A stretch of 64,000 nt of DNA, from positions 2,318,001 through 2,382,000 of the forward strand of contig NZ_CP126170.1 in assembly GCF_033170385.1 (NCBI RefSeq). Reading direction: 5' to 3'. Positions 12,330-30,600 of this stretch are shown here, piece after piece (within the stretch, counting starts at the first letter, position 1; each line of letters begins with the position of its first letter). This stretch comes from Xanthomonas rydalmerensis. Lineage in GTDB: Bacteria > Pseudomonadota > Gammaproteobacteria > Xanthomonadales > Xanthomonadaceae. The position numbers were made by a program, and so were the translations under genes. Below the pieces are notes generated by a model, which had not been told where the DNA came from, searched no databases, and saw only the letters and a list, made by a program, of their open reading frames with translations.

Positions 12330-12625
12330 TAGCCGTGCTTGCGCTGCGCCTCGGCGAAGGCGGCCAGTTGCTCCGGTGTGGCCTCGGCCTGGTGCTGCGC
12401 CTTCCAGTCGGCGAACGGCATGCCGTAGACGCGCTCGCGCGCCTGCTCCTTGCTCAAGTCTTCGCCTTCGGCGGCCGCCGCCTCGCGGTACCAGTCGGCC
12501 AGGCAGTTGCGGCAGAACCCGGCCAGGATCATCAGGTCGATGTTCTGCACGTCGGGACGGTCCTGATTGAGGTGCTGCAGCAGGCGGCGGAAGGCGGCGG
12601 CCTCGATGCGGGTGGTGTCGGTCAT
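12329..12625 (-). CDS. DUF1244 family protein
   Basis: A small protein of 98 residues with the DUF1244 signature [19 protein letters not shown], including a CxxC pair. Its biochemical function is not established. An in-frame ATG at 12649 adds eight residues; the ATG at 12625 ([12 protein letters not shown]) matches the usual family start and is preferred. Its stop overlaps the start of the downstream alpha/beta hydrolase gene. The gene is divergent from folD with about 50 bases between them. Confidence 0.82.
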
Positions 12626-13549
12626 GGCGGAATCGGGGACAATGGACATCCCCCGACTCTACACCCGCCCGCCCCGATGACCGATTCCGCGCCCGTCTCC
12701 TCCGTCCCGGCCCGCATCCTCGACGGGCGCCGCATCGCCGAAGACCTGCTCGACGAGCTCAAGGCACGGGTCGACGCGCGACTGGCGGCCGGGCAGCCGC
12801 GGCCCGGGCTGGCGGTGGTGCTGGTGGGCGGCGACCCGGCGTCCGCGGTGTACGTGCGCAACAAGCGCCGTGCGGCCGAGAAGGTCGGCATCGAGGCGTT
12901 CGACTACGACCTGCCGGCCGGTACCAGCGAAGCCGAACTGCTGGCGCTGATCGACCGGCTCAATGCCGACCCCAAGATCCACGGCATCCTGGTGCAATTG
13001 CCGCTGCCGGGCATTCCCGATGCCAGCCGGCTGATCCACCGCATCGATCCGCGCAAGGATGTGGACGGCTTCCATCCGGAGAACGTCGGCCACCTGGCGC
13101 TACGCGAATTCGGCCTGCGCCCGTGCACGCCGCGCGGCATCGTCACCCTGCTGGCGCATACCGATCAGCCGGTGCGCGGGCGCAACGCCACCATCGTCGG
13201 CGTCAGCAACCACGTCGGCCGGCCGATGGCGCTGGAACTGCTGATCGCCGGCTGCACGGTCAGCTGCTGCCACAAGTTCACCCCGCCGGAGGTGCTGCAG
13301 GCGCGGGTGCGCGACGCCGACATCCTGGTGGTGGCGGTGGGGCGGCCGGGGCTGGTCCCGGGCGAGTGGGTCAAGCCCGGCGCGGTGGTGATCGACGTCG
13401 GCATCAATCGCCTGGACGACGGCCGTCTGGTCGGCGACGTCGGCTTCGACGCGGCGGCGCAGCGCGCCAGCTGGATCACCCCGGTGCCGGGCGGGGTCGG
13501 GCCGATGACCGTGGCCACGCTGATGCAGAACACGATCGAGGCCGCTGAG

Positions 13550-15304
<1,755 letters not shown>

Positions 15305-15312
15305 TGCCCATG

Positions 15313-15427
15313 CGCGGGATTGGGGATTCGCGATTGGGGATTCGTCGCCCGCCGCGTCTCCACCGGCCGTGCGCAGCGCGGCCCCCCGCTGTTGCGAATC
15401 CCAACTCCCGAATCCCGAATCCCGGCC
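15313..15427. repeat. inverted GGGATTGGGGATTCG repeat between guaB and guaA
   Basis: Forward units (GCGGGATTGGGGATTCGCGA) occur at about 15313-15344, and complementary units (GCGAATCCCAACTCCCGAAT) at about 15395-15425. They enclose a GC-rich spacer with its own GCGCAGCGCGGCC symmetry. The whole 127-bp guaB-guaA gap is occupied by this element, which could form a hairpin in the bicistronic mRNA. Confidence 0.75.
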
Positions 15428-15431
15428 CCAG

Positions 15432-16997
15432 ATGACCAACATCCACAGCGACAAGATCCTCATCCTCGATTTCGGTGCGCAGTACACGCAGTTGATCGCG
15501 CGGCGCATCCGCGAACTCGGCGTGTATTGCGAGATCTGGGCGTGGGACCACGATCCGGCCGAGATTGCCGGCTTCGGCGCCAAGGGCATCATCCTCTCCG
15601 GCGGCCCGGAATCGACCACGCTGCCGGGCGCGCCGGCCGCGCCGCAGGAAGTGTTCGACAGCGGCCTGCCGATCTTCGGCATCTGCTACGGCATGCAGAC
15701 CCTGGCCGCGCAGCTCGGCGGCGCCACCGAAGCAGCGGACCAGCGCGAGTTCGGCCACGCCGAAGTCGAGGTGGTCGCTGCCGATGCGCTGTTCTCCGGG
15801 CTGACCGATCACGCAGGCGCGTCGCGTTTGAATGTGTGGATGAGCCATGGCGACCACGTGTCGCAGGTGCCGCCGGGCTTCACCATCACCGCCGTCACCG
15901 ACCGCATCCCGGTCGCGGCCATGGCCAACGAGGCCAAGCGCTGGTACGGCGTGCAGTTCCATCCGGAAGTCACCCACACCCTGCAGGGCCAGACCTTGCT
16001 GCGCCGCTTCGTGGTCGACGTGTGCGGCTGCGCCACGCTGTGGACCGCGGCCAACATCATCGACGACCAGATCGCCCGCGTGCGCGCCCAGGTCGGCGAC
16101 GACGAGGTGATTCTGGGCCTGTCCGGCGGCGTGGATTCGTCGGTGGTCGCCGCGCTGCTGCACAAGGCGATCGGCGACAAGCTGACCTGCGTGTTCGTCG
16201 ACACCGGCCTGCTGCGCTGGCAGGAAGGCGACCAGGTGATGGCGATGTTCGCCGAGCACATGGGCGTCAAGGTGATCCGGGTCAATGCAGCGGACCGCTA
16301 CTTCACCGCGCTGGCCGGCGTCAGCGATCCGGAAGCCAAGCGCAAGATCATCGGCAACCTGTTCGTGGAGATCTTCGACGAAGAGTCGAACAAGCTCCGC
16401 AACGCCAAGTGGCTGGCGCAGGGCACCATCTATCCGGACGTGATCGAGTCGGCCGGCAGCAAGACCGGCAAGGCCCACGTCATCAAGAGCCACCACAACG
16501 TCGGTGGCCTGCCCGAGCACATGAAGCTGGGCCTGGTCGAGCCGCTGCGCGAACTGTTCAAGGACGAAGTGCGGCGCCTGGGCGTCGAACTCGGCCTGCC
16601 GCGCAGCATGGTCTACCGCCACCCGTTCCCCGGTCCCGGCCTGGGCGTGCGCATCCTCGGCGAAGTGAAGCGCGAGTACGCCGAACTGCTGGCCAAGGCC
16701 GATGCGATCTTCATCGACGAACTGCGCAAGGCCGACCTGTACGACAAGACCAGCCAGGCCTTCGCCGTGTTCCTGCCGGTGAAATCGGTCGGCGTGGTCG
16801 GCGACGCCCGCGCCTACGAGTGGGTGATCGCCCTGCGCGCGGTCGAGACCATCGACTTCATGACCGCGCACTGGGCGCACCTGCCGTACGACTTCCTCGG
16901 CACCGTGAGCAACCGCATCATCAACGAGCTGCGTGGTGTTTCGCGGGTGGTGTACGACATTTCGGGCAAGCCGCCGGCGACGATCGAGTGGGAGTGA
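15432..16997 (+). CDS. guaA: GMP synthase (glutamine-hydrolysing)
   Basis: GuaA converts XMP to GMP using glutamine and ATP. The class I glutamine amidotransferase domain (residues about 8-205) has the GICYGMQ nucleophile and a HPEVTHT His/Glu pair. The ATP-pyrophosphatase domain has the [11 protein letters not shown]-loop near residue 235, and the C-terminal dimerisation domain ends in the conserved [10 protein letters not shown]. At 521 residues it is full length, so integration of the adjacent element has not damaged the gene. Its 3' end is the attachment site of the element. Confidence 0.97.
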
Positions 16998-17188
16998 AAT
17001 CAGGTCCTTCGGGGACTATCGCCAGCTATCGAAAAATCGCCGCAACGTGTTGATCTGAAAGGAAATAGGTCGCGGCTTCTATCGGTGGCTATCGCTGGCC
17101 AGCACGACAGGTTGGCGGTAGCGCTGGCGGTACGAAACGGAGGTCGGATCAAGACCCTCCCGTTTACTATTGAGGCCAAAACGGTCTT

Positions 17189-17270
17189 TGACGGTAAAAA
17201 CCTCTTGAGGAAAGCTTATTTCATGCGGCTTTCCGAGCATCAGCGGGTCTCCAAGTCCCTGACGGTAAAA
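17189..17270. repeat. 11-bp direct repeats upstream of the integrase, possible arm-type sites
   Basis: TGACGGTAAAA occurs at 17189-17199 and again at 17260-17270, 71 bases apart, in the 301-bp gap between guaA and the integrase gene. Integrases of this class often bind short direct repeats flanking the att core, so these are candidates (inference only). The gap otherwise holds no convincing gene. Confidence 0.3.
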
Positions 17271-17298
17271 GCCGTCACGAACAGGAGTGAAAACCTCG

Positions 17299-18555
17299 AT
17301 GCTGACCGACACTGCACTGCGCAATCTCAAGCCTAAGTCCAAGATCTATAAGGCTTTTGATCGAGATGGAATGTACGTGACGGTATCGCCTACCGGTACC
17401 GTCACCTTCCGCTACGACTATCGTCTTCATGGGCGCCGGGAGACGCTCACCATCGGACGCTACGGGCCTGCCGGCCTATCGTTGGCGATGGCCCGCGAAA
17501 AGCTCATTGATGCCAAGAAGACCATCGCCCAGGGCAAGTCGCCCGCGATGGAGAAGCAGCGCGAGAAGCGCCGGCTGACCGCCGTGAAGTGCTTTGGGGA
17601 CGTGGCGGCGAAATGGTTGGATGAGGCGCGGATGGCCGACAGCACGCGCGCGATGCGTAAGCATGTCGTCCAACGTGACATCCTGCCGGTCTTCCAGAAG
17701 CGGCTGCTCAACGAAATCACCCCTGACGACCTGCGCGCTCTCTGCCAGAAGGTGAAGGCCCGCGGTGCTCCTGCCACGGCAGTACACATCCGCGACATCG
17801 TGAAGCAGGTCTATGCCTTCGCGATCCTGCATGGAGAGAAGGTGGACAACCCGGCCGAGGGTGTGGCCGCGTCGTCGATCGCCACCTTCGTTGCCAAGGA
17901 CCGCGCTCTGTCGCCGCTGGAGATCCGGTTGATGGCGCGGCAGATGGAGTCGGTGGCGACCTATCCGACGATCCGGCTCGCGCTGCGCATGATCCTGCTC
18001 ACGCTGGTGCGCAAGAGCGAGCTGATCGAGGCTACCTGGGACGAGGTGGATTTCGAGAACGCGACCTGGACGATCCCGAAGCAGCGGATGAAGGGGCGCA
18101 ATCCGCACGTCGTGTACCTGTCGCGCCAGGCGCTGGACATCTTCGTGGCGCTGCACACCTGCGCGGCGGGGTCACGTTTCGTGCTGCCGTCGCGCTATGA
18201 CGCCGACCGCTGCATGTCGCATGCGACCTTGAACCGGGTCACGCAGATCGTGGCCCAGCGCGCCAAGGAAGCGGGATTGCCGCTGGAACCGTTCACGGTT
18301 CACGATCTGCGCCGCACCGGCTCGACCCTGCTCAACGAGGTGGGCTTCAACCGGGACTGGATCGAGAAGTGCCTGGCGCACGAGGACGGGCGCTCGTCCC
18401 GCGGCGTCTACAACAAGGCGGAGTACGCCGAGCAACGCCGGCACATGCTGCAGGAGTGGGCCAACATGGTCGATGCGTGGATCGAGGGCGAAACCTACGT
18501 TCCGAAATTGCTGCCCGAGAACATGGCGGTGCCGATGCTGAGCGCGGTAGCATGA
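17299..18555 (+). CDS. int: P4-type site-specific tyrosine recombinase (integrase)
   Basis: The 418-residue protein has an N-terminal DUF4102 arm-binding domain (about 1-85), a core-binding domain (about 95-185) and a catalytic domain. The full catalytic set is visible: Arg238, His335-x-x-Arg338, His361 and Tyr371. It should catalyse integration and excision at the guaA 3' end. ATG 17299 is preceded by AGGAG at 17283-17287; an in-frame GTG at 17287 would sit on that Shine-Dalgarno and is rejected. Transcription runs into the element. Confidence 0.93.
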   Translation: MLTDTALRNLKPKSKIYKAFDRDGMYVTVSPTGTVTFRYDYRLHGRRETLTIGRYGPAGLSLAMAREKLIDAKKTIAQGKSPAMEKQREKRRLTAVKCFGDVAAKWLDEARMADSTRAMRKHVVQRDILPVFQKRLLNEITPDDLRALCQKVKARGAPATAVHIRDIVKQVYAFAILHGEKVDNPAEGVAASSIATFVAKDRALSPLEIRLMARQMESVATYPTIRLALRMILLTLVRKSELIEATWDEVDFENATWTIPKQRMKGRNPHVVYLSRQALDIFVALHTCAAGSRFVLPSRYDADRCMSHATLNRVTQIVAQRAKEAGLPLEPFTVHDLRRTGSTLLNEVGFNRDWIEKCLAHEDGRSSRGVYNKAEYAEQRRHMLQEWANMVDAWIEGETYVPKLLPENMAVPMLSAVA

Positions 18556-18613
18556 CCATGCATTGGTTGTCACTTGACAACTTCGGTTGTCGTCTCCACA
18601 CTGGAGGCCGCTG

Positions 18614-18889
18614 ATGGTTCGCCCCTCCCATCCGAAGAAAGAAGTCGAGGAGGCGCTTCGGCATGTCGAAGGGCAGGGCTGGCGCGTCGAAGTCGGCGGA
18701 AGCCATGCGTGGGGGCGGATCTATTGCCCCTACAACGACCAGGAATGCCGTTGTGGCGAGTTCTGCATCACCAGCGTGTGGAGCACGCCGAAGAGCCCTG
18801 GCAACCATGCACGCGCCTTGCGGCGCGTCGTGGACAACTGCACCACGCACCGCCGCCAGCAGGGGGCTGGCGAGGGCGCCCAGGAGTAG
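18614..18889 (+). CDS. HicA-like small protein, candidate toxin of a TA-like pair
   Basis: A basic protein of 91 residues. The segment EGQGWRVEVGGSHAWG resembles the beta strand-loop of HicA mRNA interferases, where a conserved Gly-Ser-His carries the catalytic His. It continues with Cys-rich CPYNDQECRCGEFC and a basic C-terminus. It lies 58 bases after the integrase gene and 4 bases before an HTH protein gene, the layout of a toxin-antitoxin pair. The HicA link is inferred from the motif and size; function is unproven. Confidence 0.55.
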   Translation: MVRPSHPKKEVEEALRHVEGQGWRVEVGGSHAWGRIYCPYNDQECRCGEFCITSVWSTPKSPGNHARALRRVVDNCTTHRRQQGAGEGAQE

Positions 18890-18893
18890 AGCG

Positions 18894-19418
18894 ATGGAAT
18901 ACACCTTCACCCTGAAGTACCAACTGGCCGACGAGGACCGCGATACCGATGCGCTGGTCGAGCGTTTGGGTGAGGCCGGCTGCGACGATGCCCTGGTCGG
19001 CATCGGGCAGCCGGGGCGGCTCGCGCTGGAGTTCACCCGCGAGGCGGACAGTGCGGACGCTGCTGTGCGCAGCGCGTTGGCGGACGTGCGGAGCGCCGTG
19101 CCATCGGCCAGGCTGATCGAGGTCGCACCGGATCTGGTCGGGCTGACCGATGTGGCCGACATCGTGGGCGTGTCGCGGCAGAACATGCGCAAGCTGATGC
19201 TAGCCCATCCGGGCAGCTTCCCCGCGCCGGTGCATGAGGGCAGCGCGTCGATCTGGCACTTGGCGGATGTACTGGCCTGGCTGCAGGCGAAGGGTAGCTA
19301 CGCGCTGGCCATGGACGTTCTGGAGGTGGCGTGCGTTGCCTTGCAGGTCAACGTGGCCAAGGAGGGGCGGCGGTTATCGCGCTCAACTTCTGAGGAGCTG
19401 GAAGCTCTCGTTGGATGA
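18894..19418 (+). CDS. helix-turn-helix protein, candidate partner/antitoxin of the HicA-like gene
   Basis: A protein of 174 residues with an N-terminal alpha/beta region (about 1-80) and a MerR/AlpA-like HTH at about 85-125 (LTDVADIVGVSRQNMRKLM, then a WHLADVLAWL wing). ATG 18894 is preceded by AGGAG and lies 4 bases after the upstream stop, so the two genes should be co-transcribed and coupled. By analogy with HicB and similar antitoxins it could bind both its partner and the promoter (inference). A frame opening at 18663 runs through the upstream gene and is not used. Confidence 0.6.
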   Translation: MEYTFTLKYQLADEDRDTDALVERLGEAGCDDALVGIGQPGRLALEFTREADSADAAVRSALADVRSAVPSARLIEVAPDLVGLTDVADIVGVSRQNMRKLMLAHPGSFPAPVHEGSASIWHLADVLAWLQAKGSYALAMDVLEVACVALQVNVAKEGRRLSRSTSEELEALVG

Positions 19419-19492
19419 GGGGCTGTGAATTGATCTTTCCCTGCTCGTCGAATAGGTACGATGATGCCAATAGTTTTCTAGGAAGGCGATGA

Positions 19493-22400
19493 ATGACTGA
19501 GGGAGTGCAAAAAAAGAAAGTATCACCATCGGAGTTCATGCGCCAACTGCGTCCTGCGCTCTACTCAGATACGAGTGATCGCACGACCTACCTGCTTGAC
19601 GCAACGACGCTTGAGTACAGCCTCGACACCATTACCGCACGCAACCAGACTCACGACTTTGAGCTCTTTTGCCGCAAGCTGTGTGAGCGCACGATTTGCC
19701 CAAACCTTAAACCTGCCACCGGACCCGAAGGGGGCGGGGACAGCAAGGCTGATACCGAAACCATTCCTGTTGCGGACGAGATCGCAACTCTTACGTATGT
19801 GGGCGAACCGAATTCCGGTAAGGAACGTTGGGCGTTCGCCTTCAGCGCTAAGAAGACGTGGGCAGAGAAAGCTCGCAACGACGTGGCAGGCATTGCGGAG
19901 ACGCAGCGTGGCTATCAGAAGGTCTATTGCGTTACCGCACAGTTCGCCCGTGCGAAGGACCGCGCTCGGGTCGAGGACGAACTCACCAAGAAATATGGCC
20001 TGACCGTAACCATTCTTGATCGGAGCTGGATCGTTGAGCAGGTCGTTGGTGGTGATCGCAGGGACCTCGCTTTTAACTACCTCGGTGTTGGACAAGAGAT
20101 TGCCGACGCGCGCCGACTGGGGCCGACCGACTATTCTCGTTCCCGGCAACTCGAAGATGTCGAGAAGTTGATTGGCAACCCAGAGGCATTTTCCGGAATG
20201 GAAATGCAGCGCGTGACGGAGGCTTTGGTTGCGGCCAAGCTTTCGCGCAATTTGGAGCGTCCACGAACAGAAACGGATGGGCGGTTTGCACGCGCAATTC
20301 GATTGGCCGAACGAGATGGTACTTCCCGTCAGACGCTTGAAGCGCACTACGAATGGATCTGGACCGCCTTCTGGTGGTTTGACGATGTCGCGCACTTGAA
20401 CGCCAGCTATGACGCTTTCGAGAAGCTCGTGATCGACACGGATCACGCCAAGAACCTTGAGCTTCTGTGTAACTTGGCTCAACTGCTGTTCAACTCGGTC
20501 ATTCATCAGCATTTGACTTCCGGTGAGGCCAAGCTGGAGGAGCGCATCGCTCGACTGAGCGACAGATTAAAGGCGATGGTGGCGGACCATGATCGTCCAA
20601 ACAATTCTTTGGAGGCGCGAACCTCACTACTCGTTATCGAAGTCAATCAGGCGGCGCTCAAGAAAGATCCTCAACGACTCAGTTCACTTTGGCCGCAGTT
20701 TTCTGAGGTGATCGAGCAAGCAAATGGTCTGGGCGAGTTTGCTGCCGAGCGCTTGACTAAAATGATTGAGGTGTTTGGCAACGTCGCGGGAAAGGATCAG
20801 GGATATACCCGCCTTGTCGACGACGTTGCGGCGTTCGTGTCGGAGCGCACTGGCGAAGCTCAGGGAGCACTCGTACTCCTCAGGCGCGCTCAGCAGCTCG
20901 ATTTCGAAGACAACTTCGAAATGATCAGGTTGCTGGGCAAGGCCGCGCGGCAGCTCACCAAGAAAGAGTATGCCGACGCGCTGATCGAGACTATGCAACT
21001 TCTCACGCTGGCTTATCGCAGTGCCGGACTGCTATGGGCCGCGCGAGCAAGCTGCATTTTTGCAGTGGCTTCGATATTCATCGAGGCTGAAGAGAATAGC
21101 GATCTTCCGGCCTCAATCGTGCCAACTGTCATGATGCTTGCTTGGATCGCTGTCGAACTGCGGCATTTGCCAGATTGTCTTGAAGCCGTTCGACTGGTTC
21201 GAGGCTGTGCTGCAGGGCTTCCGCTCGACGACGCCTCCAATGAGCGTATCGCGAAGCGCCTTATGGAGTTCGATCTCATTCTTGGTAGCCAGTTGCTGAA
21301 TTTCACATCAGCAGAGCTTGAGCAAGTTGTTCAACTACCCGACGTTCTTGATCGGCTTGGCTTGCACCAGAGTCGAAATTCGCTGCTCTACGCGCTCGGC
21401 TATGAGCCAGTGCTCCGCGATGAGGGTTCTATACCGAAGGAGGAAACGCCAGAGAGTATTGCAGAGTTCTTCACATTGCTCGCTAGTCAACCAGTATCAG
21501 ACAACTTGCATGGGCCAGTCGTCTTCAATGAGTCAGATTCGCACTCTTATGTGTCGAGAGTGCAGGGCATGCGGATTGTGGTTCACTACCAGATGTCGGA
21601 GACCTCGATCCTTGTGGCCGAGTCGGTCGTTGGAGTCATTGAGGCGCTTTTTGCGACAGCTCCTGAGATTGGCGCTGCAGCGCACACTGAAAACTTCCGT
21701 ATCTCGATTCAAGAGGGTGCTGACGTGCTCGCACCTGACTTCGTGGTTGACGAGGAAGGAATGGCCGCGACTGTTAATTGGCCTGTTGGCTTGGCGCCGG
21801 CTACATATGGACGACAAGATGAGGTTCAGAGGGCATTGATTGGTTTGGCTGCGACGATCTTCGCAGCCACCTGCTTCGTGAAGGATTTGCAGCAGACCGT
21901 CGAACGCTTCTTTACGAACGAAGCTGTACTCGATCGGGTGTCGATGATTGTTGTAGCTGGGAACAGCCGCCAGCGCATCTTTAAGAAGGCTGTATCGAAG
22001 CTCGGTGATTGGGCACAGTTGGCGACGACGTCATTCCCGTTGGTGCAATCGCGCCCGTGTATCCGTCGCCGCGCGCTGGGTGCTGCTGTAGAGAATGACG
22101 ATGCTGCGGCAATCGATACGAGCAGCCCCTCTTGGCCGAAAAATCACCGCGACCTTGGTGTCCGATCAGTCATCGATTTGCATCTTTGGAATCGCGCAGG
22201 GTGGACTGGCGCGGCATTTGCCGATTGGGGGGCGGCTTATCCGCCCGCGATGGCCCTGATGTTTACGGATGAGGATGCTGCTAGGAAGATCTTTCAGCGC
22301 TGGCGCGAACGTTTTGGGGAGATCGACAAGGATGGAGATATCTACATTGCGATCGTTCGTGGCATCTCTGCTGAGAATCCCGCTCACTATCGCGTACTCA

Positions 22401-22684
22401 TCACCTCGCGGCTACCCTCCGAGGATAAACGTTCTGGCAACCGGTCATTAATGGTGGCGTCTCGAATTCAAACAATGCACGCGGAATCCGATGCCAACCT
22501 TGTGCGCTTTCTCGACGCGTATGGGCGATCGCAAGCTTACTTGCTTGTGCCTGCGATATTGCGGAGCGGGAGTTCACCGCAGTTCCTGCTGGAGCTTGCC
22601 ATCCTGAAGCGGAAATTGAGCGTAAAGAATGCGTCAGAGGTGGGGGAGCATGAGATAGAAATGATGGCGCTTGGACCCGAGTAG
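19493..22684 (+). CDS. large unassigned protein with N-terminal PD-(D/E)xK-like nuclease motif; putative defence protein
   Basis: The product has 1063 residues. Its N-terminus contains PEGGGD (residues about 79-83) followed about 33 residues later by AFAFSAKKTW (about 114-123). That spacing and context recall Mrr/restriction-endonuclease-like PD-(D/E)xK folds. Residues from about 250 to 850 look alpha-helical and repeat-like, and the C-terminal part (about 860-1050) is mixed. I find no P-loop ATPase or helicase motifs. Codon use is visibly less GC-rich than in the backbone, suggesting separate acquisition. It is convergent with the AlpA/HamB/HamA genes, so it may belong to the same defence island, but I do not recognise the family. 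Confidence 0.6.
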   Translation: MTEGVQKKKVSPSEFMRQLRPALYSDTSDRTTYLLDATTLEYSLDTITARNQTHDFELFCRKLCERTICPNLKPATGPEGGGDSKADTETIPVADEIATLTYVGEPNSGKERWAFAFSAKKTWAEKARNDVAGIAETQRGYQKVYCVTAQFARAKDRARVEDELTKKYGLTVTILDRSWIVEQVVGGDRRDLAFNYLGVGQEIADARRLGPTDYSRSRQLEDVEKLIGNPEAFSGMEMQRVTEALVAAKLSRNLERPRTETDGRFARAIRLAERDGTSRQTLEAHYEWIWTAFWWFDDVAHLNASYDAFEKLVIDTDHAKNLELLCNLAQLLFNSVIHQHLTSGEAKLEERIARLSDRLKAMVADHDRPNNSLEARTSLLVIEVNQAALKKDPQRLSSLWPQFSEVIEQANGLGEFAAERLTKMIEVFGNVAGKDQGYTRLVDDVAAFVSERTGEAQGALVLLRRAQQLDFEDNFEMIRLLGKAARQLTKKEYADALIETMQLLTLAYRSAGLLWAARASCIFAVASIFIEAEENSDLPASIVPTVMMLAWIAVELRHLPDCLEAVRLVRGCAAGLPLDDASNERIAKRLMEFDLILGSQLLNFTSAELEQVVQLPDVLDRLGLHQSRNSLLYALGYEPVLRDEGSIPKEETPESIAEFFTLLASQPVSDNLHGPVVFNESDSHSYVSRVQGMRIVVHYQMSETSILVAESVVGVIEALFATAPEIGAAAHTENFRISIQEGADVLAPDFVVDEEGMAATVNWPVGLAPATYGRQDEVQRALIGLAATIFAATCFVKDLQQTVERFFTNEAVLDRVSMIVVAGNSRQRIFKKAVSKLGDWAQLATTSFPLVQSRPCIRRRALGAAVENDDAAAIDTSSPSWPKNHRDLGVRSVIDLHLWNRAGWTGAAFADWGAAYPPAMALMFTDEDAARKIFQRWRERFGEIDKDGDIYIAIVRGISAENPAHYRVLITSRLPSEDKRSGNRSLMVASRIQTMHAESDANLVRFLDAYGRSQAYLLVPAILRSGSSPQFLLELAILKRKLSVKNASEVGEHEIEMMALGPE

Positions 22685-22730
22685 TGCCGTGATCGCTACG
22701 GTGATTGAAACGTAGTGCCAAGCTGCATGT

Positions 22731-23159
22731 TTAGATGGTGGCATCTGGTTCAGTTGTGAACCTGTGAATGGGGCGTGTCTTGCGCTGTCTGACATCCGGC
22801 CCCTTTGTGACGTTTGTGGAGTTGGATCGCGAGGCTTGTTTGCGCATCTCGATCCAAGCTTCCACTTCAGCCAGATCCCATACGACGCACCTTGGTGTCA
22901 GGTTGAAGCGGCGCGGGAACTCACCGCGTCGCTCCATTTCGTAAATCGTTGTTTCAGCCAAAGGGACAATCTGACGCAGTTCGTGGCGGCGGATGGTGCG
23001 CCGGAAAGGAAGCGGACTGCGCTTGGGGAACTGTGGCAGCGCCTCATAGGCTTCCGTCCCAGGCAAGGGGAGAGATTGGCCAAGGGCGGCGTCGAGAACA
23101 TTGGATACCTGCGATAGGGTTTTCACCTCGAACTCCATGAATACTCTGTATGGAGACAT
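22731..23159 (-). CDS. AlpA-like DNA-binding regulator
   Basis: A protein of 142 residues whose central part (RRHELRQIVPLAETTIYEME, then RGEFPRRFNLTPRCVVW and a WIEMRKQA helix) matches the AlpA/phage-excisionase winged HTH family. It lies 87 bases downstream of hamB on the same strand and may be read from the hamA-hamB transcript or its own promoter. AlpA-like proteins control integrase or cargo genes in integrated elements, so a role in excision or in regulating the defence genes is plausible. The start could also be an internal ATG at the MEFEVK position. Confidence 0.75.
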   Translation of the reverse strand: MSPYRVFMEFEVKTLSQVSNVLDAALGQSLPLPGTEAYEALPQFPKRSPLPFRRTIRRHELRQIVPLAETTIYEMERRGEFPRRFNLTPRCVVWDLAEVEAWIEMRKQASRSNSTNVTKGPDVRQRKTRPIHRFTTEPDATI

Positions 23160-23246
23160 GGTGAATTTCAGTACCTATCGGCACAACCTGTTGTGGCGTA
23201 GGTGGGCATAGAACGTTTACGCCTTCGTGCTCATCCGGTTACACAG

Positions 23247-26200
23247 TTACACATCGTGTCCCGTCCAGCGCGCTTCGCCTCGCCCAATACGGCGGATGCT
23301 GACACTCGTTCCATCCGGTAGCGGCTCGACTTCAAGCAGGCTCGGTGCTTCGGCCTGAAGCTTCTGTCTGATCGTCGTGAGCTGCACAAAGTCAGGCGTT
23401 GCAACAGACACTTGACCACTTTGCGGATCAATCTCCACCCGCATGGGGAATGCGGAGCGCGAGGGCCATTGCATCGTCCACTCTTGGGATGTCCATTTTC
23501 CATCTACGCTTGAAAGAACGTCGCGCCGGAACTGCTGCCAGATTGACTTTGTTTCGAGCGTAGGCCAATTGGGGACATCATCGAAAGCTTCCACTGCCGC
23601 TGAACGCAGCCAGGTCTTCATCTCTGCGCGAGTGGTGAAGTCAGGCGCCATTTGCTCAACTACCGCCTTGGCCGCGACGCGAGAGGGCAAGCCCGCTCGG
23701 ACAAGCATAGCCATCGCATTGGATGGAAGCCCAGCTTCCAGGCATGCGGCGGCGGCACCTTCAATAAGCATCTCTGATTCGCCACCATTGATGCGTCGAT
23801 TCATTCGGACGGCTTCGATCGCCCATACCAGGCGATAGACGAAGGCATCGTCCACCACGCGCATTCCCTCTTGGCCGATGACAGCCACGTCCTCACCTCG
23901 AATCCAGGCGCTGAGAAGATCTTTCCAGTTTGCAGGCAGTGGATCATCTGGAACAAAGGGCCGGATCGCAAGAAGCTTGTCTCCCATTCCACTGAGTGCG
24001 GCAGTCAAGACTTCCACATTGCCAAGGAGGGCGGCAGCATCGCCAAGGTCAACAAGCTCCGTCAGTTCTGTAGCTATTGCATCGATGGCGAGCCCAGATT
24101 CCAGGCCCACACCCATCGCAAACTGTCCCTTGCGCTGCTCGATCGTTGTCTTGTTCCAGATGAGCTGTGCTCTACTGACGAGAATCCAGAGCTGCTTTTG
24201 CTTTTCGAGGACATCAAGTCGAGCAATTTGCCTTGACCAAAGTGAGCCAACAAGGGCCTCATCAAGCAGCCGTGGAAGATCCGCGCTCTCTGCATCAAGC
24301 GCTTCGATCAGGCCGAGGACAGTTGCGTCCAACCGCTCGATAAGGCTTTCTATCGAGTCCGACTCTTGATCGCCCTCTACGGCGTCGGGGAACCAAGCAC
24401 CCTGTGTGTTTGACAGGTAGTCCATGGCATCCTCCCGCGCAAATACTCCCGAAGTAGAGAGACGCCTGATCACCTCGTTGACGACGACGATGATGCCACT
24501 CGAAAGCGAGCGGGCCTTGGCCGACGTGACCAGCTCTCGCCACCTCTGATGACGCCAGTCTTCCGGTTGATGCATCACGTGGATCACCAGTCCTTCAAGA
24601 TCCACAAACGCGCGGCCGGCGCGTCCTGCGACGTTGGCAAACTCTTCTCCCGTGATCAGCGTGCCCGCCCTGTACAGGTTGGGGATCAGGAGCACCGCAG
24701 CATTGAGGTTCAAGCCTTGGGCCAACGTCGGTGAGGCCACAGTAACGCGCAGAACGCCTGCGGCAAGCAGTGCCTCTACTTCACGCAAGAAGGGGCCTGG
24801 GAGGCGCCCATGATGAATGGCGACGCCGATGGCCAGGCAACGGACTGCTGGGTGCTCGGCTCCCAGCCATTCCCGACCCACGGCCATAGCACGCTCGACT
24901 TCCTGGGCGTTGGCAAGCAGTGACGGAAGAAAGCCTCGTCGTTGCAACTCCAGAGCGGTTTCTGCAAATCCCTCAACATGATCACGTTGGGTGCAAAAGA
25001 CGAGCGCTCGTTTTCCTTGCTCGGAGAATTTCCACGCTGCCGCCAGCGTCAACTCTTTGTTGTCTCTGGGGAACGGTGTCCGACGGGGGCGAATAGGAGG
25101 AACTTGCGGCACAAAATGGCGAATGAATGGCCCATCGTGCTCAAGGTCGAAGCTCAGACGTGCGGAATTGCCAATCCAGGACAACGTGCCAAATCGCTGG
25201 CGCGTAGGTCGCCAATCTGACTGAATCGGGTCGCCTGGGGCATCACTGCGAATCCATGCAGTCAGGTCATCGAGTTGATCCCCTGCCGGCAGGATCGCTG
25301 AAAGACAAACGATTCGTCGGTCGTCATGGTCAGGGCGCCGCAGCAATCGCTGCACCAGATTCTCATAGCGGATCTCGCGCTCGCTCGGGCCGATTAGATG
25401 CCCTTCGTCGAGGACGATCAATCCAACGTCGTCAATGATGTTAGGATCATTTCGCAGCGCAAAGTCCAGTTTTTCTGGCGTGGCGATAACGATGCTCTGT
25501 TCCCGAAGAGCATCCTCATCTGTTCCAGCTACGCCGCTGCTTCCATAAAGCGATGAGACAGAGAACCCAAGAGGCGTGAATGTCTTGCGAAATGAACGCT
25601 CGGTTTGGGCCGACAGTGCACGCAGTGGCGTCACGATCAAGACCCGATGTCCACAAGCCAGTGCCATCAATGCCGCGATCTCTGCTATTCGCGTCTTGCC
25701 CGCACTAGTAGGAAGCGCGACCACCAAGTCGTCGGATACGTCGGCCGCTCGTTGCGCTGCCAGCAACTGAGAAGGCCACAGTTCCACCTCTGATGAGCGT
25801 CGGCTATACAACTCGGAAACAAACAGCTTCCTGAGCTGGGCATAGTCTCCTGAACCGGGCGGGCCTTGGATGGGCAAGACCTTGTGTAGGCTGCTTGACC
25901 AAAGGTCATCGATGAGGTTTGCGGTGATCCGGAGAATCCACCAAAGTGAAACTGCACTGGCTGCCTTCGTCAGCGAAGTTGCTCGCCTTAGCAGGTTGCG
26001 CGCTTCCACAACGAGGGAGTCATGGCCGGTTTGCAGGCCAAACTCGAAGAACACCAGCGCCCTGAACATCGTTGATGTCGCCACGCGGGAGACTACGTCG
26101 TCGGGGTCAAGTTCCCCTTCGGCCGCTGCTCGGCTGATGGCTTCATCGCCGTTGACGGGGTCGTGTAGCCACGCCCTTGCACGCTGTCCAAGTCCTTTCA

Positions 26201-26651
26201 GATCGCGCACGATCAGCAGTGCAAGTGCATCCTCGGCTGGCGAGCGGTTCTGGTCAGCTTGCGCTTGTGTCAGAAGAGAGAACGCCAGTGCGGAGTAGTT
26301 TGCCAAGTGATAGGCAGCAGCCCCGACCGTTCGATAGAAGCCTCGGAATGTGTCTTCCTGCGGGCCGTTCTGGACGAGTGCCTCGAAAGCACCACCCGCA
26401 TGCACAAAGCCACGCCGCCAAGTCTCCTGATCGCCCCCAAGCTCCCGCAATGCCAGTGATGCTCGCAGTACGGAAAAGCCATAGTCAGCGAGGTCCGCGT
26501 CGATTCCTTCACTGAAAGCGGGGGCATCCGGTGGCAAATGTCCGTCATGACGAATCAGCGCTCGCGCCTGACCACGGGCCTGCAGGCGACCTCGATATCC
26601 GTCTTGGGTGGTTTCGCGCAGGAAGCCGGTTAGTTCTTCAATCGTTTCCAA
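23247..26651 (-). CDS. hamB: Hachiman defence helicase HamB (DEAD/DEAH, superfamily 2)
   Basis: The 1134-residue product has a helical N-terminal region (about 1-285) and a Ski2-like helicase core. Motif I is LPTSAGKT (about 313-320), motif Ia TPLRALSAQ, motif II DEGH (415-418), motif III LSAIL, and motif VI VAGRAGR (about 680). A long C-terminal region follows. Encoded immediately after the DUF1837-like gene with a 14-base overlap, it fits HamB of the Hachiman anti-phage system, whose helicase inspects DNA and releases HamA nuclease activity on infection (established for characterised systems). It is longer than many HamB proteins, so it may be a variant. Confidence 0.82.
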   Translation of the reverse strand: METIEELTGFLRETTQDGYRGRLQARGQARALIRHDGHLPPDAPAFSEGIDADLADYGFSVLRASLALRELGGDQETWRRGFVHAGGAFEALVQNGPQEDTFRGFYRTVGAAAYHLANYSALAFSLLTQAQADQNRSPAEDALALLIVRDLKGLGQRARAWLHDPVNGDEAISRAAAEGELDPDDVVSRVATSTMFRALVFFEFGLQTGHDSLVVEARNLLRRATSLTKAASAVSLWWILRITANLIDDLWSSSLHKVLPIQGPPGSGDYAQLRKLFVSELYSRRSSEVELWPSQLLAAQRAADVSDDLVVALPTSAGKTRIAEIAALMALACGHRVLIVTPLRALSAQTERSFRKTFTPLGFSVSSLYGSSGVAGTDEDALREQSIVIATPEKLDFALRNDPNIIDDVGLIVLDEGHLIGPSEREIRYENLVQRLLRRPDHDDRRIVCLSAILPAGDQLDDLTAWIRSDAPGDPIQSDWRPTRQRFGTLSWIGNSARLSFDLEHDGPFIRHFVPQVPPIRPRRTPFPRDNKELTLAAAWKFSEQGKRALVFCTQRDHVEGFAETALELQRRGFLPSLLANAQEVERAMAVGREWLGAEHPAVRCLAIGVAIHHGRLPGPFLREVEALLAAGVLRVTVASPTLAQGLNLNAAVLLIPNLYRAGTLITGEEFANVAGRAGRAFVDLEGLVIHVMHQPEDWRHQRWRELVTSAKARSLSSGIIVVVNEVIRRLSTSGVFAREDAMDYLSNTQGAWFPDAVEGDQESDSIESLIERLDATVLGLIEALDAESADLPRLLDEALVGSLWSRQIARLDVLEKQKQLWILVSRAQLIWNKTTIEQRKGQFAMGVGLESGLAIDAIATELTELVDLGDAAALLGNVEVLTAALSGMGDKLLAIRPFVPDDPLPANWKDLLSAWIRGEDVAVIGQEGMRVVDDAFVYRLVWAIEAVRMNRRINGGESEMLIEGAAAACLEAGLPSNAMAMLVRAGLPSRVAAKAVVEQMAPDFTTRAEMKTWLRSAAVEAFDDVPNWPTLETKSIWQQFRRDVLSSVDGKWTSQEWTMQWPSRSAFPMRVEIDPQSGQVSVATPDFVQLTTIRQKLQAEAPSLLEVEPLPDGTSVSIRRIGRGEARWTGHDV

Positions 26652-27411
26652 GTGCCAGCGCCCTTTCGTAGCAGGCCCGGATAAAGGCCTGGTGATCCTC
26701 TATGCGCAGGTGTGCAGATAAGTGAGGGCGGTTTCCGCCCGCCGCTGCCAGATCATCAAGCTGCGCCTGAGGGGTCGCGTTGCCTGACATGGTGAACAGC
26801 ATGTGGCTGGTCCTCGCGGGGGGCGCTGCTCTGCTGGCGACTTCGTTGCGAATCTTCCGGCCGACGTCCCGGCGCTCACCGCCGCCTTCCATAAGGCGAT
26901 CCGCGACGAACAGCAAAGATGTGGCAGTGGGGCGACCGTCATCCCGAGATAGCGCCTCGCGGGCCTCTGAGATGGTGGCTTTGGCAAGGCTGGCGCGACT
27001 TTTCGACTCGCCTTTCAGAAAATGCAGATTGGCTTGGTCATCGAGCCTCAGTCCAACGAAGTCATCGCCACGCAGCGCCATTTCCCGACCGTCCTTGTAA
27101 CGCAACCGACGGACCGGAACCTTGAAATCAAGGTGTTCTTCGACCAACTCGGTTGCGAGTATTTCGCCGAGTTCTCCCGAACGCGCTCGGGCTGAGCGTG
27201 GCATGCGCTCGGACAAAATAGCAGCTGCACCTGGATACCCCAGCTCGCGCACGTCATCGGCTATTTGGTCCAGGTTGTCGTACTGAGATCGGATGCGGGT
27301 GGTGAGAATCGCTTCAATAGCGGCTCTTCCCCCTTCACGCTCGGCTAATCGCCATAGCTGCTTGCTGGCGTCTTCCTCGACTTCTTTGTCGCACCAAGGT
27401 TGATACAGCAC
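26638..27411 (-). CDS. hamA: Hachiman effector HamA (DUF1837-like nuclease)
   Basis: A protein of 257 residues starting at GTG 27411 behind a strong GAGGGGA ribosome-binding site. The core shows the nuclease-type series GELGEILATEL (Glu80, Glu83), RGDDFVG (Asp116, Asp117) and FLKGESKSR (Glu135-x-Lys137), as in the PD-(D/E)xK fold of DUF1837 proteins. HamA is the DNA-degrading effector held in check by HamB. Its 3' end overlaps hamB by 14 bases. The assignment rests on the motif set and the helicase neighbour; sequence similarity was not computed. Confidence 0.78.
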   Translation of the reverse strand: MLYQPWCDKEVEEDASKQLWRLAEREGGRAAIEAILTTRIRSQYDNLDQIADDVRELGYPGAAAILSERMPRSARARSGELGEILATELVEEHLDFKVPVRRLRYKDGREMALRGDDFVGLRLDDQANLHFLKGESKSRASLAKATISEAREALSRDDGRPTATSLLFVADRLMEGGGERRDVGRKIRNEVASRAAPPARTSHMLFTMSGNATPQAQLDDLAAAGGNRPHLSAHLRIEDHQAFIRACYERALALGND

Positions 27412-27479
27412 GTCCCCTCCCTGATTTACTTGCTACGTTTTGCTACATTGTGCCGGAGACTTCCTGTTCATACACCCAG

Positions 27480-27707
27480 AACAAGACGGACTTCGATTCC
27501 GCACCCGTGCTCAAGCTGTTTACGCCCGACGCCGGTGCGACCTAGTTGCTCAGTGCGATCGACCGGGAGAAGCATGACCACGCCTTTCGCTTGTGCGACC
27601 AGGGCTTGGGTTTTCCCGAGCTGGGCTGGGTCAGCCTGCAGGAGTTGTCCACGGTACGTGGTCGGCTGAGGTTGCCGATTGAGCGTGATCGGGCCGAGAG
27701 CTGCTGA
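27480..27707 (+). pseudogene. DUF2958 gene remnant (truncated, in-frame stop)
   Basis: Reading + strand from 27480 gives NKTDFDSAPVLKLFTPDAGA, then Thr, a TAG stop at 27543-27545, and after it LLSAIDREKHDHAFRLCDQG continuing with LGFPELGWVSL. This is the body of DUF2958, a small protein common in ICE backbones; the stop replaces what is probably a Trp. The first third of the family is missing and the 3' end terminates early at 27705. The 422-bp gap 27412-27833 is otherwise empty. It marks the junction between the defence cargo and the backbone. Confidence 0.8.
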
Positions 27708-27833
27708 ACGCCCATGTGCGCGATGCGCGGCACGCCGGCCGGATCGTCGCTTGAGCTTGAACGGGGTGTCGAGAGAGGCCCCGTTCCTTGTGCAGCGCGT
27801 TACGGCGCCGAATCAGCTTTCTTCAATGAACCT

Positions 27834-28760
27834 TCAACGAGGCCAGTCGTCGCTGCGCACGTTCTCGAAGAAGTCGGGGCCGACCTCGATGCGCAGCGAA
27901 GCGTGGCGCTGCAGGATCTTCCGTGCCACTTCGGGTGAGGCGTAGTCCGTGAAATCGAGGATGTAGCTGTAGACCATCTCGCCGCTGTGGCCATCCTGCG
28001 GTTCGGCGTCCACATCAACGAGGTTGCCCACTTCGTGCGGGTCCAGGCCCAACAGATCGGCATAGGCCTGGAACATGCTGCGCACGGGCGGCCCGTCTTC
28101 GTGGTCATTGCCGCCCCAGTCCATATCGAGATCTGCGTTGGTCACTTGGCAGTCCACCGACCCAAAGCAGTGGCGGCCCAAACGCTGCACGCTCAGGGTG
28201 CCTTCCACATTGACGATGTGGCCCGCGTAGGGGCGCTCGGTGTCGATGCCAAGGCCGACGTGTCCGTCGAGGTCGATATCCAGCGCACCGCCGATCGGGA
28301 CTTTCTCGAACTCGACCTCGAAATCGAAATAGACCTCATCGACGCCATCGTAGTTGGCGTTCGCCATTTCGCTGTTCACGTCGTTATCGTCGATGACCAC
28401 CTTGTCAACGTGCTGGCGCAGGTAGTCCTCGAAGGCGGCGTAAGAAGCATGGATGCGTGTGTGGGGCGCTCGTTCTCGAAAGGCTGTTTGGATCAGTTCA
28501 TGCAAGCGATCCGGAGGCGGGGCCGCCCCCAGTTCACTGGCGCGTTGATGGAGCAGATCTTCGTCCAGCACGACGTGGTGAACGATGGTCAGGCTACTGG
28601 CTTCTTGCGCGGAGGCTTGTGCCGCCTGGTAGGCGGCAAACGTTTTGTAGCCCAGTGCAGCGGCCACTAGTTGCTGCGCATGACCAAGCGGCACAGGCAC
28701 GGCAGCAGCGGCGCTGTTCTTGCGAATGGAATGGGCGAGGTCGGAAATGCCGAGGGACAT
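27834..28760 (-). CDS. conserved ICE hypothetical protein
   Basis: The product has 308 residues. The N-terminus (LAHSIRKNSAAAAVPVPLGH, then LVAAALGYKTFAAYQA) is a short helical domain seen at the start of many plasmid and ICE proteins. The rest is acidic and rich in Asp/Glu with beta-like repeats. No catalytic motif is recognised. ATG 28760 has a clear AGGAG ribosome-binding site. It is transcribed away from the radC leader region, like hamA-hamB but separated from them by the DUF2958 remnant. Confidence 0.7.
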   Translation of the reverse strand: MSLGISDLAHSIRKNSAAAAVPVPLGHAQQLVAAALGYKTFAAYQAAQASAQEASSLTIVHHVVLDEDLLHQRASELGAAPPPDRLHELIQTAFRERAPHTRIHASYAAFEDYLRQHVDKVVIDDNDVNSEMANANYDGVDEVYFDFEVEFEKVPIGGALDIDLDGHVGLGIDTERPYAGHIVNVEGTLSVQRLGRHCFGSVDCQVTNADLDMDWGGNDHEDGPPVRSMFQAYADLLGLDPHEVGNLVDVDAEPQDGHSGEMVYSYILDFTDYASPEVARKILQRHASLRIEVGPDFFENVRSDDWPR

Positions 28761-28968
28761 ACGATTCTCCTGTTTCAGCGGGGACCAATCGAGCGCTTAC
28801 TTGGTCCACGCCCAGGCGATATCGCATGGTGAGTGGCACAAAGGGAGAAATCAGAAAGTCTGGTCTTGATTGAGCCGCTCGAAGCTCAGGCGGACGAGGC
28901 CTTGCCGCCATTTTGCGCAAAATCAGTCCAAGCGCAAGCCCCCATCCGGCGGGATCGGGGCGCCCTAA

Positions 28969-29132
28969 GGGCGTCCCCGGCCATGTGATGGCCGGGCCAC
29001 GCTGTCGTGCTGCGCATCGAGCCCCGCTGTGCGCGGGTCTCGCGCCTGGCGGGCATCCATCGTTCCCTCGCTGCGCTCGGCTGACGCCTCCGGCCCGGCC
29101 CTGTGGGCCGCGCCTGCGCGCTCCGCTTGCCG
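28969..29132. repeat. leader repeat A, copy 1
   Basis: The block beginning GGGCGTCCCCGGCC and containing GCTGTCGTGCTGCGCATCGA and CATCGTTCCCTCGCT recurs at 32709-32872 with scattered differences. Both copies lie in long non-coding stretches ahead of backbone genes. The 567-bp gap 28761-29327 consists of this block plus leader repeat B. Confidence 0.75.
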
Positions 29133-29327
29133 GTCCTGGCTTCGTTTGGGGCTGGGGTGGGCGGAGTTGCCGTTCCCTCGAACGTACCACGGCGTTCTCG
29201 CCGTCAAGGGCTGCGCGTGCCTGTGGGCACGCTTGCGGCCTGTGGCCGTCTCCGACCCCTGACAGCTTGCGCTGCGCCGTGATGGCGGCGGTGCCGGGCA
29301 ATTTCGCCCGAGCAACTGGAGATCGCC
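29112..29327 (+). promoter_or_regulatory. leader repeat B, copy 1: foldable element upstream of the 131-residue protein gene
   Basis: This 216-bp block is almost identical to 29841-30054 upstream of radC, and both end exactly at a start codon. An outer stem can form between GTCAAGGG (29203-29210) and CCCCTGAC (29256-29263) with one mismatch. It encloses two hairpins, GCGTGCC/GGCACGC and CGGCC/GGCCG, giving a cloverleaf-like fold. A small CGGGC/GCCCG hairpin sits just before the Shine-Dalgarno. It could be a cis-acting RNA or a single-stranded DNA promoter (inference). Confidence 0.6.
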
Positions 29328-29723
29328 ATGAACGAGAAATCGCACGTTTCGCTGGAACAACACGTCTGCCTGGTCTGCGGCAGCGCGTTCGAGACCGGCT
29401 CCGTCCTGCTGGATAGGGGCCTGCGCGCCAGCATGGAGCGCCACACGAGGACGGGCTGGGGGCTGTGTCCCGAGCACCGGAAGTTCGCCGACGATGGCTT
29501 CGTCGCGTTGATCGAGTGTGATCCTGAGCGCAGTGCGTTGGCGACCAATGCAGAGCGCCTGAAGCCGGAGCATGCATACCGGACGGGGCACGTGGCGCAT
29601 CTGCGGCGAGAGGTGTTCGCGAAGCTGTTCGATGTGCCCTTGGAGTCCTGCCAGGACTGCGTGTTCGTGGAGGTCGGGCTGATCGATCAGCTGGAGTCGC
29701 TGCTGAAGCGCGAGGCCACCTGA
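29328..29723 (+). CDS. conserved ICE protein with CxxC...CxxH zinc-binding pattern
   Basis: A protein of 131 residues with CLVCGSAF at residues about 14-21 and GLCPEHRKF near 45-53, a Cys4/Cys3His-like metal site, and a second CQDC pair near the C-terminus. The function is unknown; such proteins are frequent next to radC in ICEs. The ATG is preceded by CTGGAG at the end of leader repeat B, and the gene is closed by a strong terminator at 29735. Confidence 0.72.
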   Translation: MNEKSHVSLEQHVCLVCGSAFETGSVLLDRGLRASMERHTRTGWGLCPEHRKFADDGFVALIECDPERSALATNAERLKPEHAYRTGHVAHLRREVFAKLFDVPLESCQDCVFVEVGLIDQLESLLKREAT

Positions 29724-29734
29724 TTGCAGTCACG

Positions 29735-29769
29735 GGCGCCGCCTGCCGTGAGGCGGGCGGCGCCTTTTT
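29735..29769 (+). terminator. rho-independent terminator
   Basis: GGCGCCGCC (29735-29743) pairs with GGCGGCGCC (29756-29764), followed by TTTTT (29765-29769). It starts 11 bases after the stop codon of the 131-residue protein gene and so isolates it from radC. Confidence 0.88.
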
Positions 29770-29840
29770 GTTTGCGGTCGATCTTGCGCCGCTGCTTCCC
29801 ATTGCGTTCGCTACATCTTCAGCCCGGCGAGGTTCGCCGG

Positions 29841-30054
29841 GCCTGCGCGCTTCGCTTGCGGATCCTGGCTTCGTTTGGGGGAGGGGTGCGGAGTTGCCGA
29901 TCCCTTCACCGTACCACGGCGTTCTCGCCGTCAAGGGCTGCGCGTGCCTGTGGGCACGCTGGCGGCCTGCGGCCGTCTGCGACCCCTGACGGCTTGCGCT
30001 GCGCCGTGATGGCGACGGTGCCGGGCAATTCCGCCCGAGCAACCGGAGCTGATC
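29841..30054 (+). promoter_or_regulatory. leader repeat B, copy 2: foldable element upstream of radC
   Basis: Second copy of the block at 29112-29327. Here the outer stem is longer: GCCGTCAAGGG (29927-29937) with CCCCTGACGGC (29983-29993), a single mismatch in 11 pairs. It encloses GCGTGCC/GGCACGC and CGGCC/CGGCCG hairpins. The conservation of the stem while loops vary supports a selected structure. It ends at the radC ATG with CCGGAG as the ribosome-binding site. Confidence 0.65.
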
Positions 30055-30570
30055 ATGACCATGTCGAACCTGTCCATTCTCGATGTCGATGCCTCGCTGC
30101 ACGTGCGCGACGGCCGGGGGCGCTACCGTCCCGCATCCGTTGACCAGATCCTGGCGGCTGCGCGGCGCGTGGCTGACCTGAAGGTGCAGCGGGGCGCGGA
30201 GTTCACCTCGCCTGTTTCGGTGAAGAAGTACCTCTGCGCGAAGTTGGCGGGCCTTGAGTGCGAGGTGTTCGCCGTTCTGTTCTTGGATACGAAGCACCGT
30301 CTGATCGAATACGTGGAGATGTTCCGGGGGACCATCGACTCTGCGGCGGTGCATCCGCGGGAGGTGGTCAAGGAGGCGCTGCGCTTGAACGCGGCCGCCG
30401 TGATCCTGGCGCACAACCATCCCAGCGGGAACCCGACGCCGAGCGAAACGGACAGGCAGATCACCGAGCGCCTGCGCAGCGCTCTGGGCCTGGTAGACGT
30501 GCGAACCCTGGATCACTTCATCATCGCGGGGTCGCGCGCGGTGTCGATGGCGATGCGTGGTTGGAGGTGA
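30055..30570 (+). CDS. radC: RadC family JAB1/MPN (JAMM) domain protein
   Basis: The 171-residue product carries the RadC metalloprotease-like motif HNHPSGNPTPSETD near residues 122-135 with an upstream conserved Glu. It lacks the N-terminal helix-hairpin-helix region of chromosomal RadC, as is usual for plasmid and ICE versions. The biochemical role is unsettled, although such genes cluster with anti-restriction functions in leading regions of conjugative elements. The start could be ATG 30055 or 30061. A terminator follows directly. Confidence 0.88.
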   Translation: MTMSNLSILDVDASLHVRDGRGRYRPASVDQILAAARRVADLKVQRGAEFTSPVSVKKYLCAKLAGLECEVFAVLFLDTKHRLIEYVEMFRGTIDSAAVHPREVVKEALRLNAAAVILAHNHPSGNPTPSETDRQITERLRSALGLVDVRTLDHFIIAGSRAVSMAMRGWR

Positions 30571-30575
30571 ACTTC

Positions 30576-30600
30576 GGGGGGCTTCGGCCCCCTTTTCTTT
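30576..30600 (+). terminator. rho-independent terminator after radC
   Basis: GGGGGC (30577-30582), loop TTCG, GCCCCC (30587-30592), then TTTTCTTT. It begins just after the radC stop (30568-30570). Confidence 0.85.

Follow-up and report, generated by a model that had tools for sequence, protein, structure and literature searches.

A candidate single-protein defence gene with a likely Mrr-like N-terminus, facing Hachiman genes in Xanthomonas rydalmerensis

The 64,000-nucleotide stretch of the Xanthomonas rydalmerensis genome analyzed here (assembly GCF_033170385.1, contig NZ_CP126170.1, positions 2,318,001 to 2,382,000; hereafter the window) carries on its forward strand, at positions 19493–22684, an open reading frame (ORF) for a protein of 1063 residues, P0001. 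Judged from its sequence and from the genes around its relatives, P0001 is probably a stand-alone phage-defence system made of a single protein, with an Mrr-like nuclease head, a helical body and a sensing tail. A preliminary description of this DNA had proposed the gene as a single-gene or helper defence candidate; the single-gene reading is favored by the results below, and the helper reading is not.

The ORF is a real gene under purifying selection. Its frame is kept in four relatives, with ratios of nonsynonymous to synonymous substitution (dN/dS, NG86) of 0.11–0.14, which argues against a chance ORF: the values are 0.128 for Thauera (locus L007), 0.136 for L008, 0.117 for Burkholderia (L009) and 0.107 for Escherichia coli (L004). 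The sequence AGGAAGG ends 6 bases before the start codon, and promoter and Rfam scans gave nothing useful. The coordinates first assigned to the ORF proved exact, and the motifs singled out at that time, GGGD and AFAFSAKKTW, are present at residues 80–83 and 114–123. A pattern search also found no Walker A motif in P0001, in agreement with the earlier remark that an ATPase motif is absent; the pattern occurs in one of 72 aligned family members, which we take as chance.

The N-terminal segment of P0001 is likely, although not proven, to be an Mrr-like nuclease head. Profile comparison (hhalign) of 51 N-terminal segments of the family with 23 sequences of Mrr_cat (PF04471) gave a probability of 72% (P = 3.5e-5) over 105 columns, with the FE motif, GD-x3-D, the QxK position, the VTT(-like) strand and the LIDG aspartate in register. 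The Mrr_cat set came from 27 matching genomes out of 114, in which 34 places were listed and 30 loci obtained; seven loci were dropped as short, weak, interrupted or unreadable in the expected frame. Controls against the same set stayed at or below 0.5% for the reversed profile, eight shuffled profiles and the family's own C-terminal profile, at or below 6.7% for 100 further column-shuffled profiles, and at or below 4.1% for 73 natural families from the same loci. Other gap settings raised the match to 75–76%, and removal of the most distant member, L125, lowered it to 62% (P = 7.6e-5). For Cap4_nuclease, two loci only were available, too few for a profile. The proposal of an Mrr-like N-terminus of the PD-(D/E)XK type is borne out at the profile level by the distance between 72% and the controls, a result that supports kinship with Mrr_cat rather than membership; the domain would accordingly be expected to adopt a PD-(D/E)XK fold.

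The putative active site was located in an alignment of 72 full-length sequences, made up of P0001, 18 proteins from the database and 53 locus copies without interruption (those broken or cut being excluded); the 71 other members are 23–88% identical to P0001. Residues E57, G80–G82, D83, K85, D87, S118, W123, K126, D130, R139, D176 and W179 are invariant (72/72), and these include the conserved acids of the bipartite motif of the PD-(D/E)XK superfamily (E57, D83 and D87). L125, which is 32% identical in the N-terminal segment, keeps E57, D83, D87, S118, K126, D130 and D176, while K85, K120 and W123 are replaced by Gly, Gln and Ile. Asp83 had already been named as a residue of interest, and it holds its place; however, D87 must be counted beside it, because both are invariant and the D83-x3-D87 spacing is that of GD-x3-D in Mrr_cat. 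The choice of Lys120 and Lys121 as catalytic residues did not stand: position 120 is occupied by Lys in 52 sequences, Met in 9, Gln in 8, Glu in 2 and Asn in 1, and position 121 by Lys in 49/72, whereas K126 is invariant. Since the QxK lysine varies and K126 never does, the catalytic lysine is likely K126, which is likely situated in the helix after the third core strand. The active site would then consist of E57, D83/D87 and S118, with K126 replacing the variable K120. Migration of the lysine has been reported for COG4636/Tt1808 (PMC1189080).

In blocks of 40 residues, the mean majority identity is 0.56–0.76 for residues 41–280, 0.27–0.45 for 721–880 and 0.54–0.57 for 881–960, and such a combination of a conserved effector and a fast-changing body would fit a sensor. 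In the C-terminal segment, W899, A902, W904 and G906 are invariant in the 72 members. The middle segment may be a solenoid resembling tetratricopeptide repeats (TPR). Among 45 middle segments, PF20308 (TPR-S) was matched in two (best E 0.013), PF00515 in one (0.026) and PF13424 in one (0.12), all of them weakly, and among the 25 of 29 matched families that are listed, unrelated ones scored down to E 0.0022. The middle-segment profile also matched one small helical chain in the PDB, 8g4k (E 0.0004), which we take to be a designed protein. Some sources name relatives of P0001 "tetratricopeptide repeat protein," and one E. coli fragment of the gene is annotated "restriction endonuclease."

P0001 had been called unassigned, and profile searches likewise gave no known family for it: no match was obtained in Pfam (E ≤ 1), NCBIfam (E ≤ 0.1), PHROGs (E ≤ 0.01) or the PDB, the PADLOC models gave 0 families at E ≤ 10, and neither PADLOC nor Pfam gave a Hachiman (HamA/HamB) match. 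Mrr_cat in Pfam was matched by neither P0001 nor any of the 51 N-terminal segments, in which Pfam reported 14 chance-level families (lowest E 0.0062), including ParB_C in 10 segments and GIY-YIG in 1. Against the PDB, a 28-member full-length profile retrieved only two photolyases (E 1.4), and the N-terminal and C-terminal alignments and the distant member gave no match of weight.

The gene is spread patchily over plasmids and islands. Of 7997 candidates scored in a database search, 1534 proved to be homologues at E ≤ 1e-3 (120 are listed individually), and a genome scan confirmed 88 family places, of which 79 distinct loci were kept. Hosts belong to at least six phyla, and include many Pseudomonadota, Desulfobulbus (L020), Desulfosudis (L018), Bacteroidota (L061, L078, L080–L085), a Verrucomicrobia genome (L069), Vicinamibacterales, Nostoc and Cohnella; where a host was identified only by its organism name, we assigned the phylum from general knowledge. 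The gene was found in 3 of 100 relatives of the source genome and in 3 of the 369 genomes searched in the class (both counts include the source genome), in 18 of 5426 E. coli genomes (all chromosomal), in 15 of 72,556 plasmid records and in 1 of 50,697 phage records. The sole phage relative (MT836254.1:3447-6335), 25% identical, lies on an 11.6-kb record from human feces. A copy in a relative of the same genus (G003) is 53% identical to P0001, and no hamAB of the window's type was found around it. The distant relative L125 (7774-10800, 1009 residues) stands directly behind a gene judged by eye as pyruvate dehydrogenase E1.

In the loci examined, the gene stands alone, with no constant neighbor, and is accompanied by predicted defence genes far beyond the control. 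Eighty-three loci were reduced to 53 groups at 80% identity, and up to two of the nearest ORFs of at least 120 residues on each side were scanned in the 52 non-window representatives (193 proteins, 70,526 residues). For the control, 20 stretches of 12 kb were taken arbitrarily from genomes related to that of the window, which gave 97 proteins (43,982 residues). At E ≤ 1e-6, PADLOC families numbered 187 for 96 neighbors and 137 for the other 97, against 6 for the 97 control proteins (figures that count families and not proteins, the 25 commonest families being listed), so that the defence position ascribed to the gene at the outset is corroborated. Models matched around the gene include Type I and III restriction, pAgo, BrxL, GajB and MADS. 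Direct scans of ten hand-picked large neighbors gave matches in seven: a Type III methylase directly upstream of the gene (L064), a subunit of a Type I restriction system (L020), a Type IIG-like protein (L038), a TIR-like domain (L069), ATPase models (L012 and L075) and a weak PDC-S02 (L036); the large neighbors in L070, L028 and L026 had no match. Among 101 adjacent ORFs of 53 loci, only three related pairs were found (E ≤ 1e-5), and an upstream ORF on the same strand lies within 100 bases in 15/52 loci.

Because no methylase or antitoxin-like partner is constant, an autoinhibited enzyme is argued for. In this mechanism, the Mrr-like head would be held silent by the helical body and released once the tail senses infection, and its target would be DNA. 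The most variable part of the protein (residues ~720–880), together with residues 880–1060, may recognize a phage product or a damaged or modified state of DNA. The outcome would be either selective cleavage of phage DNA or suicide of the infected cell. More tentatively, the family may represent a new and widespread immune system in one protein, distributed over six or more phyla and not covered by the PADLOC models of 2023, in which a helical sensor is joined to an Mrr-type head whose lysine has moved to K126.

Several points weigh against a nuclease-based defence protein. The Mrr_cat match, at 72%, is below 90%, and random 12-member subsets of the Mrr sequences (n = 4) gave 67, 69, 25, and 61%, with only 47 columns aligned in the fourth. 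The usual QxK lysine is not conserved in the family, and Pfam named no nuclease of the PD-(D/E)XK fold in the 51 N-terminal segments. The literature searched, mostly outside subscription journals and supplements, held neither a description of the family nor a defence phenotype for any of its members. Cross-matches of ATPase and methylase models inflate the number of PADLOC families, and the control stretches are matched neither for mobile elements nor for host. Finally, mobile-element company is as real as defence company, since the most widely shared flanking family is integrase-like (13 loci, seven of them from one Sphingopyxis group; it includes the L007 integrase). As to the profile method itself, HamA scores only 0.4% against Mrr_cat, which indicates that some true nucleases are missed by it.

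That integrase-like family, as the commonest shared neighbor, is also part of the case for a mobile-element function, such as anti-plasmid activity, entry exclusion or island maintenance, in place of phage defence. Integrase, excisionase-like and AlpA-like genes flank the gene in the window, and partition genes adjoin it on Nostoc and Cohnella plasmids. However, the elements vary from locus to locus, in most loci no element gene accompanies the gene, and E. coli islands retain hamB and lose the gene; we consider this function improbable. A Type IV modification-dependent restriction enzyme, in which an Mrr-like nuclease and a base-reading C-terminus would cut foreign modified DNA directly, fits the relation of the head to Mrr_cat, the want of a constant methylase neighbor and the defence islands. 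However, no reader domain was recognized in the middle or C-terminal segments, and the body, with its weak TPR-S match, looks more like a protein-binding solenoid. We regard such an enzyme as rather unlikely, although on present evidence it is hard to separate from a stand-alone system with an infection-sensing tail.

The third alternative is that P0001 belongs to the adjacent Hachiman system as an accessory component and works with HamAB. In the window, as in Thauera L007 and E. coli L004–L006, the gene and hamBA face each other, and this neighborhood appears to have been kept or remade over a long divergence, because E. coli HamA and HamB are just 52 and 54% identical to those of the window (71% for the gene product). 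Nevertheless, hamA of the window's type occurs in only 5 of 86 sequences (the window and L001–L085, L001 being the window's own locus), namely the window, L007 and the three E. coli loci, all in one of the 53 groups; the query was the window's HamA/HamB, so that Hachiman genes of other types could have escaped notice, and contig ends truncate many of the loci. Within the same group, L008 and L011 are without hamA in the stretch examined, and the contig of L009 ends just behind the gene. Of 5426 E. coli genomes, 19 carry hamB of the window's type, over its full length in every case (one copy is annotated as split), and the gene or a remnant of it lies, by coordinates, ~340 bases away in 19/19. 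The gene is uninterrupted in 9 of these and interrupted or truncated in 10: five copies lack the start and are split by an IS21-type element, one is start-truncated with a second piece elsewhere, one is in several frames and three are remnants. These copies are not independent events, and three of the regions were inspected with annotation. Since the gene is broken in 10/19 copies while hamB stays full length, P0001 is unlikely to be a Hachiman part. In addition, none of the 15 plasmid records that carry the gene is among the best 10 of 161 plasmid matches to HamB. The N-terminal profile scores 0.3% against HamA; HamA and Mrr_cat likewise fail to match in such a test. With hamA in so few sequences and hamB outliving the gene in E. 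coli, the helper option is disfavored, and we hold it to be very improbable. The repeated breakage of the gene next to full-length hamB in E. coli looks as if the gene were costly or dispensable there.

P0001 shares features with several known systems. With Mrr/Mrr_cat it has in common a profile match over the whole domain and motifs in register; it differs in having no Pfam match, in SxK in place of QxK with a variable K120 and an invariant K126 six residues on, in a longer loop between motifs and in the ~850 residues that follow the domain. Hachiman, whose effector nuclease is HamA according to PMC12278908, is a neighbor that faces the gene in one group of loci, but it is a separate and inconstant one, and P0001 has no profile similarity to HamA. 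HamM and other protease-paired gated nucleases are silent until infection, as P0001 would be, and some of their loci lie beside Hachiman; they are separate pro-nucleases cut by a protease, whereas the body of P0001 is fused and has no constant neighbor (PMC12799240). Nucleases of the KOG2143/KIAA1018 type unite a PD-(D/E)XK nuclease and a probable TPR-like helical domain in one protein, as P0001 is predicted to do, although the longer ones have a zinc finger and a domain of unknown kind in addition; the likeness is one of description only (PMC1189080). Finally, the gene directly upstream of that of P0001 matches the B component of PADLOC PDC-M06, but this gene is excisionase-like and P0001 itself matches no PADLOC model.

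If the proposed reading is right, a large family now labeled "hypothetical" or "tetratricopeptide repeat protein" would become a one-gene defence system that carries its sensor and its effector in the same polypeptide. Such a system would be easy to clone and test, with E57, D83, D87 and K126 as direct mutants, and immunity nucleases of the PD-(D/E)XK type would gain a variant with a migrated lysine. A natural comparison is offered by the E. coli copies, some whole and some interrupted, that lie next to the same Hachiman genes. The features of the gene and its island are listed in Table 1.

Table 1. Features of the gene and its surroundings; positions are those of the window.
Feature	Position	Strand	Evidence
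Gene of the 1063-residue protein P0001, predicted nuclease-sensor	19493..22684	+	ATG start, ORF, homologues, dN/dS
N-terminal segment, residues 38-216, with Mrr-like domain (aligned ~52-180)	19604..20140	+	hhalign to Mrr_cat
E57 codon (FE motif)	19661..19663	+	72/72; also in L125
D83-D87 codons (GGGDSKAD), equivalent of Mrr_cat GD-x3-D	19739..19753	+	D83 and D87 72/72; L125; hhalign
S118-A119-K120 codons, Mrr QxK position	19844..19852	+	S118 72/72; K120 52/72
K126 codon, invariant, candidate migrated catalytic lysine	19868..19870	+	72/72; kept in L125
Middle segment, residues 216-880, likely helical repeat scaffold	20138..22132	+	Weak TPR-S/TPR matches
C-terminal segment, residues 880-1060, putative sensor part	22130..22672	+	32-member alignment; invariants in 72
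Tyrosine integrase of the island	17287..18555	+	PF00589, PF13356
Excisionase-like gene, PADLOC label PDC-M06B	18663..19418	+	PHROG 2620 E 7e-25; PADLOC E 1e-85
AlpA-like regulator	22731..23159	-	PF05930 E 9e-13
hamB, Hachiman helicase; neighbor, not a part	23247..26651	-	PADLOC HamB 1532.7 bits
hamA, Hachiman nuclease; neighbor, not a part	26638..27411	-	PADLOC HamA E 5e-97, PF08878

The surroundings first reported for the gene need slight correction. Minus-strand hamB and hamA do face it, but the AlpA-like gene stands in between, and the slot said to be next to the integrase is separated from it by the excisionase-like gene. For the latter, PADLOC gives a candidate defence component, PDC-M06B, and PHROGs an excisionase/transcriptional regulator; the PADLOC label may reflect a mobile-element gene swept into a defence model. 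A two-gene system formed with this upstream gene was rejected, the neighbor being excisionase-like and present in only 4/86 sequences, the window and its own copy L001 among them. No literature on PDC-M06 was found.

Ahead of the integrase, at 13604-17000, lie guaB (IMP dehydrogenase by Pfam) and then an ORF (15231-16997) that we take from its C-terminal sequence to be guaA; it has no family match, another frame having been scanned. A recombinase trio at 12335-17053 was likewise discarded, because Pfam gives tetrahydrofolate dehydrogenase and IMP dehydrogenase there. The family gene is also found behind an ORF matching the putative guaA in L007, L009 and L060, so that the 3′ side of guaA appears to be a repeatedly used site of insertion; downstream, no exact direct copy of the guaA end reached 14 nucleotides (nt). 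From within the putative guaA frame through the island (15453-29321), the window and Thauera phenylacetica L007 share 91% identity. DNA identity is 96–98% for the gene, hamB and hamA and only 84% for the integrase, which suggests that cargo and integrase may differ in history.

Direct repeats were observed at 29030-32900: a 176-nt unit occurs twice (29156 and 29883; 90% identity), and a 70-nt unit has copies at 29030 and 32771 (93% identity). A second patch of low GC content, at 46001-48000 (0.534, against 0.617–0.627 in the adjoining 2-kb bins), is possibly further cargo.

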